Origin: Spirochaetota bacterium
GTDB taxonomy: Bacteria; Spirochaetota; UBA4802; JAGODF01
Assembly (NCBI GenBank): GCA_026419015.1
Contig: JAOAAF010000013.1
Location: 1-39,670 of the forward strand
Direction: 5' to 3'
DNA length: 39,670 bases
Position numbers and translations under genes: made by a program. The notes beneath the pieces are model-generated. The model had not been told where the DNA came from. It ran no database searches and saw nothing but the letters and a program-made list of their open reading frames with translations. Of the stretch, positions 6,956 through 11,808 are shown in pieces (position 1 is the first letter of the stretch; every line of letters starts with the position of its first letter).

Positions 6956-7765
6956 TTATTTCACAAGGTGGATCATAAGCGTCACGCCAAAATGTTTTAA
7001 AAAGGGTAATTTGCCATTTGCAAGCTTTTCTATTTTGTCGGAGAGCCGTCGAAGCGGTCTGTGGAGGAAACGAGGTATGATGATGATATGCCAACTAATT
7101 CGTGTATGAAAGTTCCAAGGTGGCCGAAATTCGTGGGCAGTGATTTCGCAGTGTGAAAAAAATTTGCGGCAAATTTTTTTGATTTCTCCAATGCGATAGA
7201 ATCGCATTCGAATTGGATCGTGAAGGCGAAACACATGGATGCTTATAAATTGCAAAAACGCGAAGAGGAGGTTTTCGGGAGAAAATCTCGATGGGACTCG
7301 AATGTATGCCTTACCCCCTTTTTTAAGCACGCGGCTAATCTCGCGCAACACTTCAATCCCATTATCTTTGGAAAGGTGTTGCAGCACAAGCAAGCAGTAA
7401 ACCGTATCGAAGCTTTCATCGGCAAACGGGAGATTTGTTGCATCCCCCCTTACCAGTTTCGCATGGTGATTGTATTTTGAAAGGTGATCCCTTGCTGCGC
7501 GGAGCATATTGTGAGAAATATCGCACCCTACTGCATCCCCACCGCGATCGAGCACCGGTTTAAGCACACGACCCCACCCGCAGCCGCAATCCAAAATGCG
7601 CTCGCCTGGGCGTACGGGGAAAGGGGGTGGTGCATCTAATACATTCCCATAGTAATCGGGCAAAAGCGCTTCGAGGCCTACGGTGATAAACGCAGGGGCG
7701 CGCGTTGCGCCATCATCCCACACGCGTACGTAATCATGAAAAAAATTATTGTCGTTTTCTTTCAT
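6956..7765 (-). CDS. Class I SAM-dependent methyltransferase (Methyltransf_11 type)
   Basis: The 269-residue protein has the SAM-binding glycine motif ILDCGCGWGR, the acidic strand end GCDIS, motif GDATNLPFADESFD and a post-motif VLKKGGKAYIRV. This is the small-molecule or lipid methyltransferase pattern; the substrate cannot be read. The C-terminal third is rich in His, Arg and aromatics (RISWHIIIIPRFLHRPLRR) and may touch the membrane. Its ATG overlaps the stop of the DUF4015 gene by 4 bases (ATGA), with AGGAAA 7 bases upstream, so the two are translationally coupled. A polar-lipid or surface-glycan methylation role is only a possibility. Confidence 0.88.
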   Translation of the reverse strand: MKENDNNFFHDYVRVWDDGATRAPAFITVGLEALLPDYYGNVLDAPPPFPVRPGERILDCGCGWGRVLKPVLDRGGDAVGCDISHNMLRAARDHLSKYNHHAKLVRGDATNLPFADESFDTVYCLLVLQHLSKDNGIEVLREISRVLKKGGKAYIRVPSRFSPENLLFAFLQFISIHVFRLHDPIRMRFYRIGEIKKICRKFFSHCEITAHEFRPPWNFHTRISWHIIIIPRFLHRPLRRLSDKIEKLANGKLPFLKHFGVTLMIHLVK

Positions 7766-9264
7766 TGCGATTTTCCTGATGCGAGGTCGTTTTTTTCAAC
7801 TTTTTCCTTTTGAGTTTCGTTGTTGCGCGGTGCGCTTTTTTTAATCAAGTGCAATGCCGCAAATACCGTATCGTAGTTGTTGGCGGCATTCCAGAAAAGA
7901 TACCCGAAAGCACCCGCATCATCGCATGCGCGTATTTGGTCAATAATGTATTTTTCGTTGTACCACGAAACACCCCATCGAAAAGCTTGGAGCCAAGGTC
8001 GAATACGCGTGTTGCCTGCCTGAGCTATGAATTTTTTTGTACCTTCCATAATAAAATAGTATGGGTTATCTCCAGGTTTTTTAAATCCATCGAAATCTTC
8101 GTTAAAATGCGAGGGATAAAGCATTGGGGAGATGACATCGCAACACTTGGCAAGCCGCTCAATTCGCTGACCGATTCGTTGGATGTCCACATCATTCTGC
8201 CACGCAATGATGCCAAACAGATCAACCGAAAGCCGTACGTTCTTTTTTGCAAGTACCTCGTGTGCACGGCATAGGAACTCTTCTATTATTTCTTCTTTTT
8301 TCTTTTTGCCGCTATGAAATGCAAAGGAAGCGCGCGAAGTTCCCCCTATGGTGGGAAAGCGAATATAGTCGAATTGAATTTCATCAACGCCTTTTTCAGC
8401 GAGTTCTTCTGCAAGCGCAATCGCGTATTCTTGCACGCCTTTGTGCGTGGGATCGCACCACAGTTCGTTTGAATTATGATTCCACATCGAACCATCGCGT
8501 TCGCGTATGGCAAACTCTGGTACCTTCTGATATAAGAGATGATCGCGAAATACTGCAATCCGCGCAATGAGATATATTCCATGTTCTTTGAGAAATCGAA
8601 TGAGAAAATCCACATTTCCAATTGGAGCTTTTTCGTGGAGATTATACTTTTGAACAAGTGGAACAGAGCTTTTGTAATTTACGATTCCCGATACATCCTT
8701 TGCGTCGAATACTATTGCATTTACCCCAATCGATCTGTACGAGATGATCTGTTTCAGAGTGTTTTCTTTTCCAATCATCTCACCGTTGTAATACAACCCT
8801 ATAGTTTTTGGAATTTGTGCCAACGCAGTATTGCGCATTGATTTCACATAGGGGGGCAATGCGTTCGGGATAAGCAACATTGTATTTTTTGGGATGGTGT
8901 TCGTTAATATTCTGTTTGTTTTTTGAATTTCATCGTGTGCGCTTTTCGTCGTGTAAAACGATGTGTACGAGATAGTATTTTGTGCGATTTCTCGCATTGT
9001 GGTTTCTTTTGAAGTGATGTAAAAAAGGAAATGACCAAAGCGCGTGAATCCTTCATCTATGTTTGTTGGAACGCGATAATATTTAATGCTTGGCTTGTGC
9101 GATTTTAAATTGTTTGTCGATGAAAATAATGAAATGATTGTGCCGCGGAAAAGATCAGTATAATAGTAGACACGAGAAAGGTGTTGCGAATAGAGATAAA
9201 GCGAAATGCCAACGATGATGCAGGCAATCCCACTTAGGCGCATAACCACAACTGTATTTTTCAT
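7762..9264 (-). CDS. Membrane-anchored LysM and DUF4015 putative glycoside hydrolase
   Basis: 500 residues. An N-terminal membrane anchor (about 10-27), a LysM-like module (about 86-133, TMREIAQN to MLLIPN) and a C-terminal TIM-barrel of the DUF4015 (GH13-like putative glycoside hydrolase) family: GLYYNGEMIGKENTL, AIVFDAKDVSG, LIARIAVFRD, WCDPTHKGVQEYA, GVDEIQFDYIRFP, SVDLFGIIAW and ISPMLYPSHF. LysM binds peptidoglycan or chitin-like glycans, so this enzyme probably acts in the periplasm on a GlcNAc-containing polymer. The start is ATG 9264, with AAAGAG 5 bases before it; the GTG six bases further up lacks one. The C-terminal 20 residues are a charged tail (NNETQKEKVEKNDL). It is the first gene of a two-gene unit with the methyltransferase. 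Confidence 0.87.
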   Translation of the reverse strand: MKNTVVVMRLSGIACIIVGISLYLYSQHLSRVYYYTDLFRGTIISLFSSTNNLKSHKPSIKYYRVPTNIDEGFTRFGHFLFYITSKETTMREIAQNTISYTSFYTTKSAHDEIQKTNRILTNTIPKNTMLLIPNALPPYVKSMRNTALAQIPKTIGLYYNGEMIGKENTLKQIISYRSIGVNAIVFDAKDVSGIVNYKSSVPLVQKYNLHEKAPIGNVDFLIRFLKEHGIYLIARIAVFRDHLLYQKVPEFAIRERDGSMWNHNSNELWCDPTHKGVQEYAIALAEELAEKGVDEIQFDYIRFPTIGGTSRASFAFHSGKKKKEEIIEEFLCRAHEVLAKKNVRLSVDLFGIIAWQNDVDIQRIGQRIERLAKCCDVISPMLYPSHFNEDFDGFKKPGDNPYYFIMEGTKKFIAQAGNTRIRPWLQAFRWGVSWYNEKYIIDQIRACDDAGAFGYLFWNAANNYDTVFAALHLIKKSAPRNNETQKEKVEKNDLASGKSQ

Positions 9265-9410
9265 TGTCACTCTTTGAAATAGAAATTCATTACCGCAAGG
9301 AATTATGAGACATGAATGAAACGGTGCAATGGTCTGTCAAATATAATCTGAATAAAAATACTTGATATTTTTCTTGTGCATGAGAGTTTAATCCACGCGA
9401 GTTGTAATAT

Positions 9411-9468: not shown

Positions 9469-10257
9469 ATGATGGATAAAATTATTCATGTCATCATTAA
9501 AAAAATTAATCTTTTTTTTCGGGGGATTAAGGATTTTGCTCGTTTTATTGGCTCGATTTTTAAATCATTTCAATCGTTCCGATATCTCCGTTTCCGATCG
9601 ATTTACACAATTGCAGTAAATCAAACCCGGTTTACAGGATTTGATGCGCTTCCCCTTATTATTTTAATTGCATTATTGTTGGGCGGTACTATCATAATTC
9701 AAGCAACGAAGAATTTCCCTAAGTTTGGAATAGAAGGTTTTGTCGGCAATCTTTTGGTAATCATCATTGCGCGGGAACTTGGTCCTCTTGTCACAGCGCT
9801 TATTGTGGTGAGCCGATCTGGTTCGGCTATTGCGGCTGAGATCGCCACGCAAAAACAGCGGAAGGAAATTCAAGCGCTCGAAGTGCTTGGGATCGATACT
9901 GTGCTCTACATTGTTTTTCCGCGCATCATTGCGTCGATCATTTCGATTTTTTCATTAATTATTATTTTTGATCTTGTTGGTTTTTTTGGTGGATATCTCC
10001 TTGCCATCACCACTGTGTACATTCCACTTGATATTTTTTTTCAAACGCTTATGGAATCGTTTACACTTATTGACTTGTTTGGCACGCTTATTAAAAGTTT
10101 GGTGTATGGAATTTTAATTCCATTGATCTGTTGTTATTATGGATTTAAACCAGAATCCGATTTCCAGATTCCCATTTTTGTTTCAAAAGCAGTTGTGAGA
10201 ACTCTGGTTGTTATTTTTTTAGTTAATGTGTTAGTGTCAGCGTTATTCTATTTTTAA
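9469..10257 (+). CDS. MlaE-type ABC permease (phospholipid transport)
   Basis: A 262-residue integral membrane protein of the MlaE/YrbE family, the inner-membrane permease of Mla or MCE lipid transporters that move phospholipids between the membranes. It has an N-terminal amphipathic helix, about five hydrophobic spans, and the family hallmark around residues 101-142: ARELGPLVTALIVVSRSGSA, then AEIATQKQRKEIQALEVLGI. The ATG pair at 9469 and 9472 leaves the start ambiguous by one codon; a GGGTG site is close. Twelve bases separate it from the MlaF-like gene. No MlaD/MCE substrate-binding subunit is in the window. Identity is strong; the direction of transport cannot be inferred. Confidence 0.93.
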   Translation: MMDKIIHVIIKKINLFFRGIKDFARFIGSIFKSFQSFRYLRFRSIYTIAVNQTRFTGFDALPLIILIALLLGGTIIIQATKNFPKFGIEGFVGNLLVIIIARELGPLVTALIVVSRSGSAIAAEIATQKQRKEIQALEVLGIDTVLYIVFPRIIASIISIFSLIIIFDLVGFFGGYLLAITTVYIPLDIFFQTLMESFTLIDLFGTLIKSLVYGILIPLICCYYGFKPESDFQIPIFVSKAVVRTLVVIFLVNVLVSALFYF

Positions 10258-10269
10258 GCGATTGAAGTG

Positions 10270-11031
10270 ATGGATAGAGAAATTCGATTGAAATTTGATT
10301 CTGTAACCTGTTATGGAAGTCATTCGATATCCTTAATTGATTTTTCGTTTGCGTTGAAAGAGAGCGAAAACCTTGTAATCTTTGGCCCTGAAGATTCAGG
10401 AATAAGTCTCATTTGCCCTCTCATTGTTGGTTCAATTAGCGATTTTGAGGGGACAATATACTATCGCGGTCGTTCAATTAAGGATTTCGATTATGTGGAG
10501 TTGCACAATTATCGTACCCGACTTGGGTATCTTCAATCGGGATATGGGCTTATTAACAACATGACCGTTGAAGAAAATATTCTATTGCCACTTCGGTACC
10601 ACTCCCAATTATCCATAGAAGATGCGATGCGCAAAGTCGATGAACTTATAAAGGAACTGAAACTGCACCATTGCAGAAATTTAAGACCGGTAGATCTTTT
10701 AAAGTATGAGACATTAAATACTGCCTATGCGCGCGCTATTGCGCTTGATCCTGATATTATTCTTCTTGAGCATGCCCTTGAAAACCAATGCCTGATAAAT
10801 GCCCAGGTGTACCTTCAAAGCCTGCGGAAGAGAATATTTCGGGAAGGCTGTTCGGTAATTGTGGTGACATACGAACCCGAGCGCTATACGGATTTTGCCG
10901 ATAGCTTTATAATGATTTACAAAGGGAATAAGGTTTTTGAAGGCGACAGAGGTGCATTTCTCGAACAAAGAAATCCCTATCTTCGACAGTACATGGAAGC
11001 TTCGCTTTGCGGGCCAATGAAAATTCAGTAA
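10270..11031 (+). CDS. MlaF-like ABC ATPase homologue lacking catalytic motifs
   Basis: The 253-residue chain is collinear with MlaF from end to end (LGYLQSGYGLINNMTVEENILLPLRYHSQL and ARAIALDPDIILLE sections, read in pieces) and follows the MlaE-type permease directly. However, Walker A reads GPEDSGIS: the essential Lys is Ile45 (ATA) and the following Thr is Leu. The LSGGQ signature is replaced by LLKYETL (143-149). Walker B Asp is Glu167 and the catalytic Glu is His168 (LLEHAL), and the H-loop His is Tyr201 (VVTYEP). The Q-loop Gln89 is kept. There is no frameshift or stop, so it is a maintained protein rather than a wreck. It probably cannot hydrolyse ATP and may be structural or pair with another ATPase. 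A GTG three bases upstream is also in frame. Confidence 0.85.
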   Translation: MDREIRLKFDSVTCYGSHSISLIDFSFALKESENLVIFGPEDSGISLICPLIVGSISDFEGTIYYRGRSIKDFDYVELHNYRTRLGYLQSGYGLINNMTVEENILLPLRYHSQLSIEDAMRKVDELIKELKLHHCRNLRPVDLLKYETLNTAYARAIALDPDIILLEHALENQCLINAQVYLQSLRKRIFREGCSVIVVTYEPERYTDFADSFIMIYKGNKVFEGDRGAFLEQRNPYLRQYMEASLCGPMKIQ

Positions 11032-11208
11032 ATTTGCCTTGACCAAAATCTAAACAAAAAACATGTGGAATTAGATAGATATGTTGTGCAATTCTGCAAT
11101 AGAGCGAAAAATTTCTGTGATGCGATTTCGTTATTTTATGTCACTTTGCGAAAAACTCATTATAAACGCGAAATCAAATAAACATTTGCTGCGGGGGTGG
11201 TACAATTA

Positions 11209-11808
11209 ATGAAAAAACCGGAAAAAATAGCAAAAAAAAAGAAATTCATTATTGAGGCGCTGAAACGGCAATTAGATAAACATGCGTATTCCTATGTATC
11301 GATTCAAGATGTGGCCGATGAGGCAGGTATTTCAAAAGGAGGTTTGCGGTATTATTTCCCAACGAAGGAATCGCTTTATGAGGAACTCATTCAGGATTTT
11401 TTTAATCAAATTGAAGAAGAGCATTTACAGATAGTAAGCAACCCTAATTTAGAAGAAGACCGTTTTTTTCTTTCAACTCTTTTAGGAATTGAACGCTTTG
11501 TGCTTAATGAAGCAAATATAAAAGTGTTTGTAAATCTAATGCTGTATGGGCTGCAAGATGAAAAAATGCGCCAACCAATTAAAAAGTTTTTTAGGAATCA
11601 CCTTGAACTGTACAAGCGGATTGTCATCCAAACGAAGGAAAATCGAAAATCGCTGCCCCCAATTAACCGTGGGGATTTCGATATGACATTTCTTGCGCGC
11701 ATCGCACAGATTATCTTTTTAAGTGCAGGTCTTTTAGAAGCGATCGATCCCATTGGCATTGAACCCAGCAAGCTTACGCGCTATGTGATTTCCCTTTTTG
11801 AAGAATAA
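11209..11808 (+). CDS. TetR/AcrR-family transcriptional regulator
   Basis: A 199-residue one-component repressor. The N-terminal helix-turn-helix is clear (VSIQDVADEAGISKGGLRYY followed by FPTKESLYEEL, about residues 29-60), and the rest is the all-helical ligand-binding and dimer domain. The start is ATG 11209 with GGGGGTGG 8 bases upstream; a GTG at 11197 is inside that site. It is in the same direction as the mlaEF-like genes but 177 bases away, so it may have its own promoter. Control of the lipid transporter is plausible from position only. No palindromic operator was obvious. Confidence 0.9.
   Translation: MKKPEKIAKKKKFIIEALKRQLDKHAYSYVSIQDVADEAGISKGGLRYYFPTKESLYEELIQDFFNQIEEEHLQIVSNPNLEEDRFFLSTLLGIERFVLNEANIKVFVNLMLYGLQDEKMRQPIKKFFRNHLELYKRIVIQTKENRKSLPPINRGDFDMTFLARIAQIIFLSAGLLEAIDPIGIEPSKLTRYVISLFEE

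Follow-up and report, generated by a model that had tools for sequence, protein, structure and literature searches.

A conserved pseudo-ATPase probably occupies the NBD position of an MCE-type lipid transporter in Spirochaetota

The window analysed here, a stretch of 39,670 nucleotides from a Spirochaetota bacterium, corresponds to C44, one of the 217 contigs that make up a draft genome of 2.98 Mb and 89% completeness. It encodes an MlaE-family permease (E3) and, downstream of it after a gap of 12 bases between the E3 stop and the next start, a pseudo-MlaF protein (pF); the MCE protein that is the partner of this operon (D3) is encoded on another contig of the same genome. The features are as follows.

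9469..10257, + strand: E3, MlaE-family permease, 262 aa (Pfam MlaE PF02405, 200.8 bits)
9838..9909, + strand: coupling-helix segment of E3, residues 124-147 by inferred mapping, with Gln at residue 128 and the basic residue Lys at 132
10270..11031, + strand: pF, pseudo-MlaF with an ABC-ATPase fold and all catalytic motifs lost, 253 aa (from the translation)
10384..10407, + strand: former Walker A of pF, GPEDSGIS, with Lys45 replaced by Ile and with a new, invariant Glu41
10525..10563, + strand: former Q-loop and entry to the helical subdomain, GYLQSGYGLINNM, with the aligned Gln lost and the remainder strongly conserved
10696..10716, + strand: former ABC signature, LLKYETL where LSGGMQK is expected
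10756..10800, + strand: former Walker B, catalytic Glu and D-loop, IILLEHALENQCLIN, with Glu167-His168 and the newly fixed Gln173 and Asn177
10867..10878, + strand: former H-loop, TYEP, with His replaced by Tyr201 and with a newly fixed Pro203
10972..11019, + strand: C-terminal extension, N.Y..QY....GPM, matching the MlaF-type tail of intact paralogues (GPI)
C136:16200-16877 of the window genome: D3, short MCE protein (~225 aa)

An earlier note on this DNA had described pF as full length, in frame and directly after an MlaE gene, with Ile45 for the Walker A Lys, no signature, Glu-His for Walker B and the catalytic Glu, and Tyr for the H-loop His. Each of these readings was borne out by the 253-aa translation, in which the LSGGQ segment reads LLKYE, the Walker B and catalytic Glu segment reads LLEHAL and the H-loop segment reads VTYEP. 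Two losses can be added to that list, namely the Q-loop Gln, whose position (column 90) is Ser in the window protein, and the D-loop, which has been rebuilt as NQCLIN. The protein matches the Pfam ABC-ATPase domain PF00005 (ABC_tran) with 46.2 bits (cut-off 25) and carries the MlaF-type C-terminal extension, in which N235, Q240 and G248 are conserved in 30/30 sequences and P249 and M250 in 29/30, and its 70 bits against the NCBIfam MlaF model PRK11831 lie below the equivalog threshold of 441. pF is predicted to fold like MlaF: its AlphaFold2 model has a pLDDT of 93.9 and a pTM of 0.90, the nearest solved folds are the E. coli MlaF chains 6xgy and 6xbd (24% identity, TM-score up to 0.92 for 6xbd_I), and the nearest solved structures by sequence profile are also of the MlaF type (MlaFEDB). 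From its residues, pF is predicted neither to bind nor to hydrolyse ATP. Directly 3' of pF, where relatives carry the MCE gene, the window encodes a TetR-type regulator (11197-11808, + strand), and divergent from E3 lies the gene of a 502-aa protein (7762-9270, - strand), homologues of which occur near E3 in 27 of 41 neighbourhoods.

Orthologues of pF were found in 42 of the 46 genomes of the class, covering 25 of its 26 genera and 7 families, at 38-73% identity; the named relatives of the window genome are Spirochaetota metagenome assemblies. Among 40 distinct orthologues, any single residue for ATP hydrolysis is kept by at most two: the Walker A Lys, the Q-loop Gln, the signature SGG, the second signature Gly and the catalytic Glu by none, the Walker B Asp by 1/40, and the H-loop His by 2 of the 39 sequences that are readable there. 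The intact paralogues of the class, our comparison set, keep Lys, Gln, SGG and Asp each in 53/53 rows. The replacement residues of pF are themselves conserved, i.e. Glu41 in 40/40, Glu167 in 38/40, His168 in 37/40 and Pro203 in 39/39, and Gln173, Asn177 and Cys135 are nearly invariant. Between relatives, the dN/dS of pF is 0.007-0.22, somewhat higher than the 0.025-0.11 found for the intact paralogue F1 and well away from 1, these being Nei-Gojobori values with many pairs saturated in dS. pF is under purifying selection, and the decay with dN/dS near 1 that the earlier note had entertained was not seen; nor did any close relative have an intact Walker A, which is found in distant relatives. 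Such an ancient retention shows that pF has a function, which by itself shows neither scaffolding nor passive transport.

The gene neighbourhood ties pF to a permease and an MCE protein, as would be looked for in an MlaF-type subunit. E3 lies immediately 5' of pF in 30/30 class loci read and was found in the same 42/46 genomes as pF, and D3 lies directly 3' of pF in 25 of the 29 loci of relatives, so that the usual gene order is MlaE, pseudo-MlaF, MCE. Two of the remaining loci break off before this position can be judged, and two are from the genus next to the window's. The four class genomes without pF (G007, G008, G017 and G034), which belong to three families, are all also without E3, and their MCE gene count is correspondingly lower. 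In the window genome, D3 on C136 is followed by genes for a glycosyltransferase, a lipoprotein-like protein and a sigma factor, and since this is the block that follows E3-pF-D3 in relatives, the operon has here been split between pF and D3. A break between pF and the MCE gene is common to the window's genus and its sister genus. Thirteen genomes of the Turneriella group have pF next to D3 and E3 at an unlinked site, and E3 is still present in 13/13 at 44-50% identity. These data show that E3, pF and D3 belong together. No MlaB gene was seen beside pF, and a search of the class for MlaC (PF05494) found it in 1/46 genomes and not in the window genome.

The permease has changed at the surface that would face pF. 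In E. coli, MlaE residues E127, Q128, S131, M135 and R142 contact MlaF, with E127 contacting MlaF R52 (PMC7784689). At residue 128 of E3, 35/35 pF-paired permeases have Gln; the others read have Met there in 52/52. Our numbering of E3 and pF onto E. coli MlaE and MlaF follows what we take to be the sequence order of the E. coli proteins. At position 50 of pF, which is aligned with MlaF R52, Lys or Arg was found in 0/43 dead ATPases and in 79/79 more intact ones, and the E3 position partnering R52 is acidic in 21/21 F1-paired permeases read and mostly basic in the pF-paired ones. This change in the coupling helix favours pF over an ordinary MlaF as the working partner of E3, although shared ancestry could also split the permeases in this way.

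In a wider sample of 393 Spirochaetota genomes, E3-type permeases also occur in other families at 33-43% identity, and in most cases genes for an ATPase and an MCE protein come after them. The ATPases linked to E3 in those families keep the Walker A Lys in 26/26, the Walker B Asp in 26/26, the catalytic Glu in 19/26 and the H-loop His in 11/26, and the first Gly of the signature has changed in nearly all 26. The pF proteins of the Turneriella group (n=13) keep Lys in 12/13, Asp in 9/13 and Glu in 1/13, SGG and His in 0/13, and have Glu41 in 13/13. G071 was grouped with the more intact ATPases rather than with the pseudo-ATPases, its ATPase being nearly intact on inspection. In quick, unrooted trees made without bootstrap, all E3 of the phylum form one clade (SH-aLRT 100) in which the pF-paired E3 are nested (100), and the pF of the class and of the Turneriella group form one clade in the ATPase tree (SH-aLRT 100). 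Because the Turneriella group keeps the Lys, and the ATPases that accompany this permease lineage in other spirochaetes are more intact, our reading is that the motor was probably lost stepwise on one lineage of permeases. The signature, the His and mostly the catalytic Glu would have been lost before the Turneriella group and the class split, and the Lys and the Asp later, in the class. Thus the proposal that the catalytic positions were lost together holds for the motif counts within the class, but over the wider tree their loss was stepwise. In one other family (L287, L291 and L299), the E3-linked ATPases have Asn at the catalytic Glu and Asp at the H-loop His with Walker A intact, and may represent an intermediate stage. 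Outside the phylum, four verrucomicrobial loci (L095, L105, L106 and L131) have the order MlaE, degenerate MlaF, MCE; their MlaF has lost the signature and the H-loop His, the Lys is lost in 2/4, and the permease is without Met at position 128. Here the motor may have been lost a second time, independently.

We consider it probable that pF is a conserved pseudo-ATPase in the NBD position of an MCE-type (Mla-like) inner-membrane lipid transporter, E3-pF-D3, in which its role is structural and transport is independent of ATP. The earlier suggestion of a stable non-catalytic subunit is well supported by the class-wide conservation together with MlaE and MCE genes, the purifying selection, the joint loss in four genomes and the change in the coupling helix. 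It has been shown that neither the K47A nor the E170Q mutant of E. coli MlaF complements (PMC7367683), and as each of these changes fails there, pF, which is without both residues, is not expected to power transport. An E3 dimer would carry two copies of pF on its coupling helices; connected by the MlaF-type tail, the pair would hold the permease and the MCE ring assembled in a conformation that is either fixed or gated by a ligand. Lipid passage between the inner membrane and the MCE ring would then either follow the lipid gradient or draw on a driving force other than ATP hydrolysis by the complex. The precedents are mixed: Walker B mutations in MceG of M. tuberculosis make the Mce complexes unstable (PMC9947336), so an MCE complex that works without hydrolysis must have compensated for this, whereas PqiAB and LetAB do without an ATPase (PMC12436622). 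A more far-reaching proposal, that this is a transporter of ABC architecture permanently without ATP, its old pocket rebuilt as a lock or a ligand gate and its lipids moved passively, kept across the class and a related group, is made tentatively, and is somewhat less likely than not.

A sensor or gate is one alternative to the structural role. The former ATP pocket may have been rebuilt for another ligand, such as a metal, a different nucleotide or a metabolite, whose binding opens or closes E3. New residues have been fixed at the old catalytic positions, where a purely structural relic might vary, and these leave room for a ligand-gated variant; the same residues could, however, form a packing or salt-bridge network free of nucleotide, and we give the sensor a small though real chance.

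It is also conceivable that E3 is powered in trans. The earlier note had raised a second ATPase encoded elsewhere, and the search for a second intact MlaF and an MCE gene did find, besides D3 on C136, three intact or near-intact MlaF paralogues in the window genome: F1 in a complete MlaE-MlaF-MCE operon on C101, FX after rsgA on C138, and FY adjoining an MCE gene on C150, with a second free MlaE on C137. Any of them might drive E3, either by itself or paired with pF, which would then be the regulatory half of a mixed dimer, and an ATPase shared between several MCE systems is known in MceG of M. tuberculosis. However, F1 has its own operon, and no intact ATPase with the phyletic profile of E3-pF-D3 was found when FX (across the class) and FY were compared with it; since both persist in genomes that have lost the unit, neither tracks it. 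Moreover, with the Walker side and the signature side of pF both gone, a mixed dimer would have no complete composite site on either face, and the coupling helix of E3 has diverged at residues 128 and 132 from its counterpart in permeases that work with intact ATPases. That another ATPase drives E3 in trans is therefore unlikely, though not impossible. Regarding the paralogues themselves, the catalytic Glu of FX (C138:12084-12818) is replaced by Asp (DDP) at each of the 29 class loci, out of 30 (L143-L172), for which Walker B was read, and FY of the window genome keeps Glu there; as genomes with a single MlaE keep both, this suggests that FX and FY may form a mixed ATPase pair on one permease.

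That ATP is still bound as a structural cofactor, without being hydrolysed, would fit the Walker A Lys kept by nearly all of the Turneriella-group orthologues. In the class, on the other hand, the loss of the Lys and the Q-loop Gln from all 40 orthologues, and of the Walker B Asp from all but one, has removed the contacts to phosphate and Mg, and we regard such a cofactor as very improbable. A decaying pseudogene or an assembly or read error, which the many off-consensus catalytic positions might suggest in a single sequence, is rejected, as 40 concordant orthologues from independent assemblies share the losses in full-length frames, with dN/dS well below 1 and retention throughout the class.

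Among known systems, the structural pseudo-ATPase that we favour is closest to the MlaF of MlaFEDB from E. coli, A. baumannii and P. aeruginosa, with which it shares the ABC-ATPase fold and the C-terminal tail, and there too an MlaE-family permease and a single-domain MCE protein are encoded together; it differs in that all catalytic motifs are lost, no MlaB gene lies beside pF, and 45/46 class genomes are without MlaC. In ABC transporters with one degenerate site, such as TAP and heterodimeric bacterial exporters, the loss of catalytic residues has been tolerated over long evolution and one composite site still works. Here, in contrast, there is a single NBD gene that lacks every motif, so that no site is expected to work. 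To our knowledge, the membrane partners PqiA and LetA are not MlaE permeases and are without an ATPase domain. PqiAB and LetAB, MCE systems that exist without any ATPase, resemble E3-pF-D3 as complexes for MCE-based lipid transport (PMC12436622). The minimal MlaEFD of Veillonella parvula is likewise a three-gene set in a cluster without MlaA, MlaC and MlaB, but its MlaD is long (419 aa), as against ~225 aa for the MCE protein here, and its MlaF, identified in that survey by profile and synteny, is described as standard-like, whereas the ATPase here is dead (PMC10665443). MceG of mycobacteria is another MlaF-like ATPase whose presence stabilises an MCE complex; unlike pF it is catalytic, and the stabilising effect depends on its Walker B (PMC9947336). 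We found no report of an MlaF without catalytic motifs in the open-access papers searched, and within that literature a pseudo-ATPase subunit is new for MlaE/MCE transporters.

An annotation blind to the motifs would label pF an ordinary ABC ATPase. The spirochaete series, in which the ATPases on one lineage of permeases range from nearly intact to fully dead, documents the dismantling of an ABC motor and also shows which permease residues change alongside. Both the direction in which MCE systems move lipids, to or from the outer membrane, and their need for ATP are contested, and a conserved natural MlaE-MCE complex without ATP hydrolysis would be a direct test case: should it prove to move lipids, hydrolysis would not be an intrinsic part of the MlaE/MCE path.
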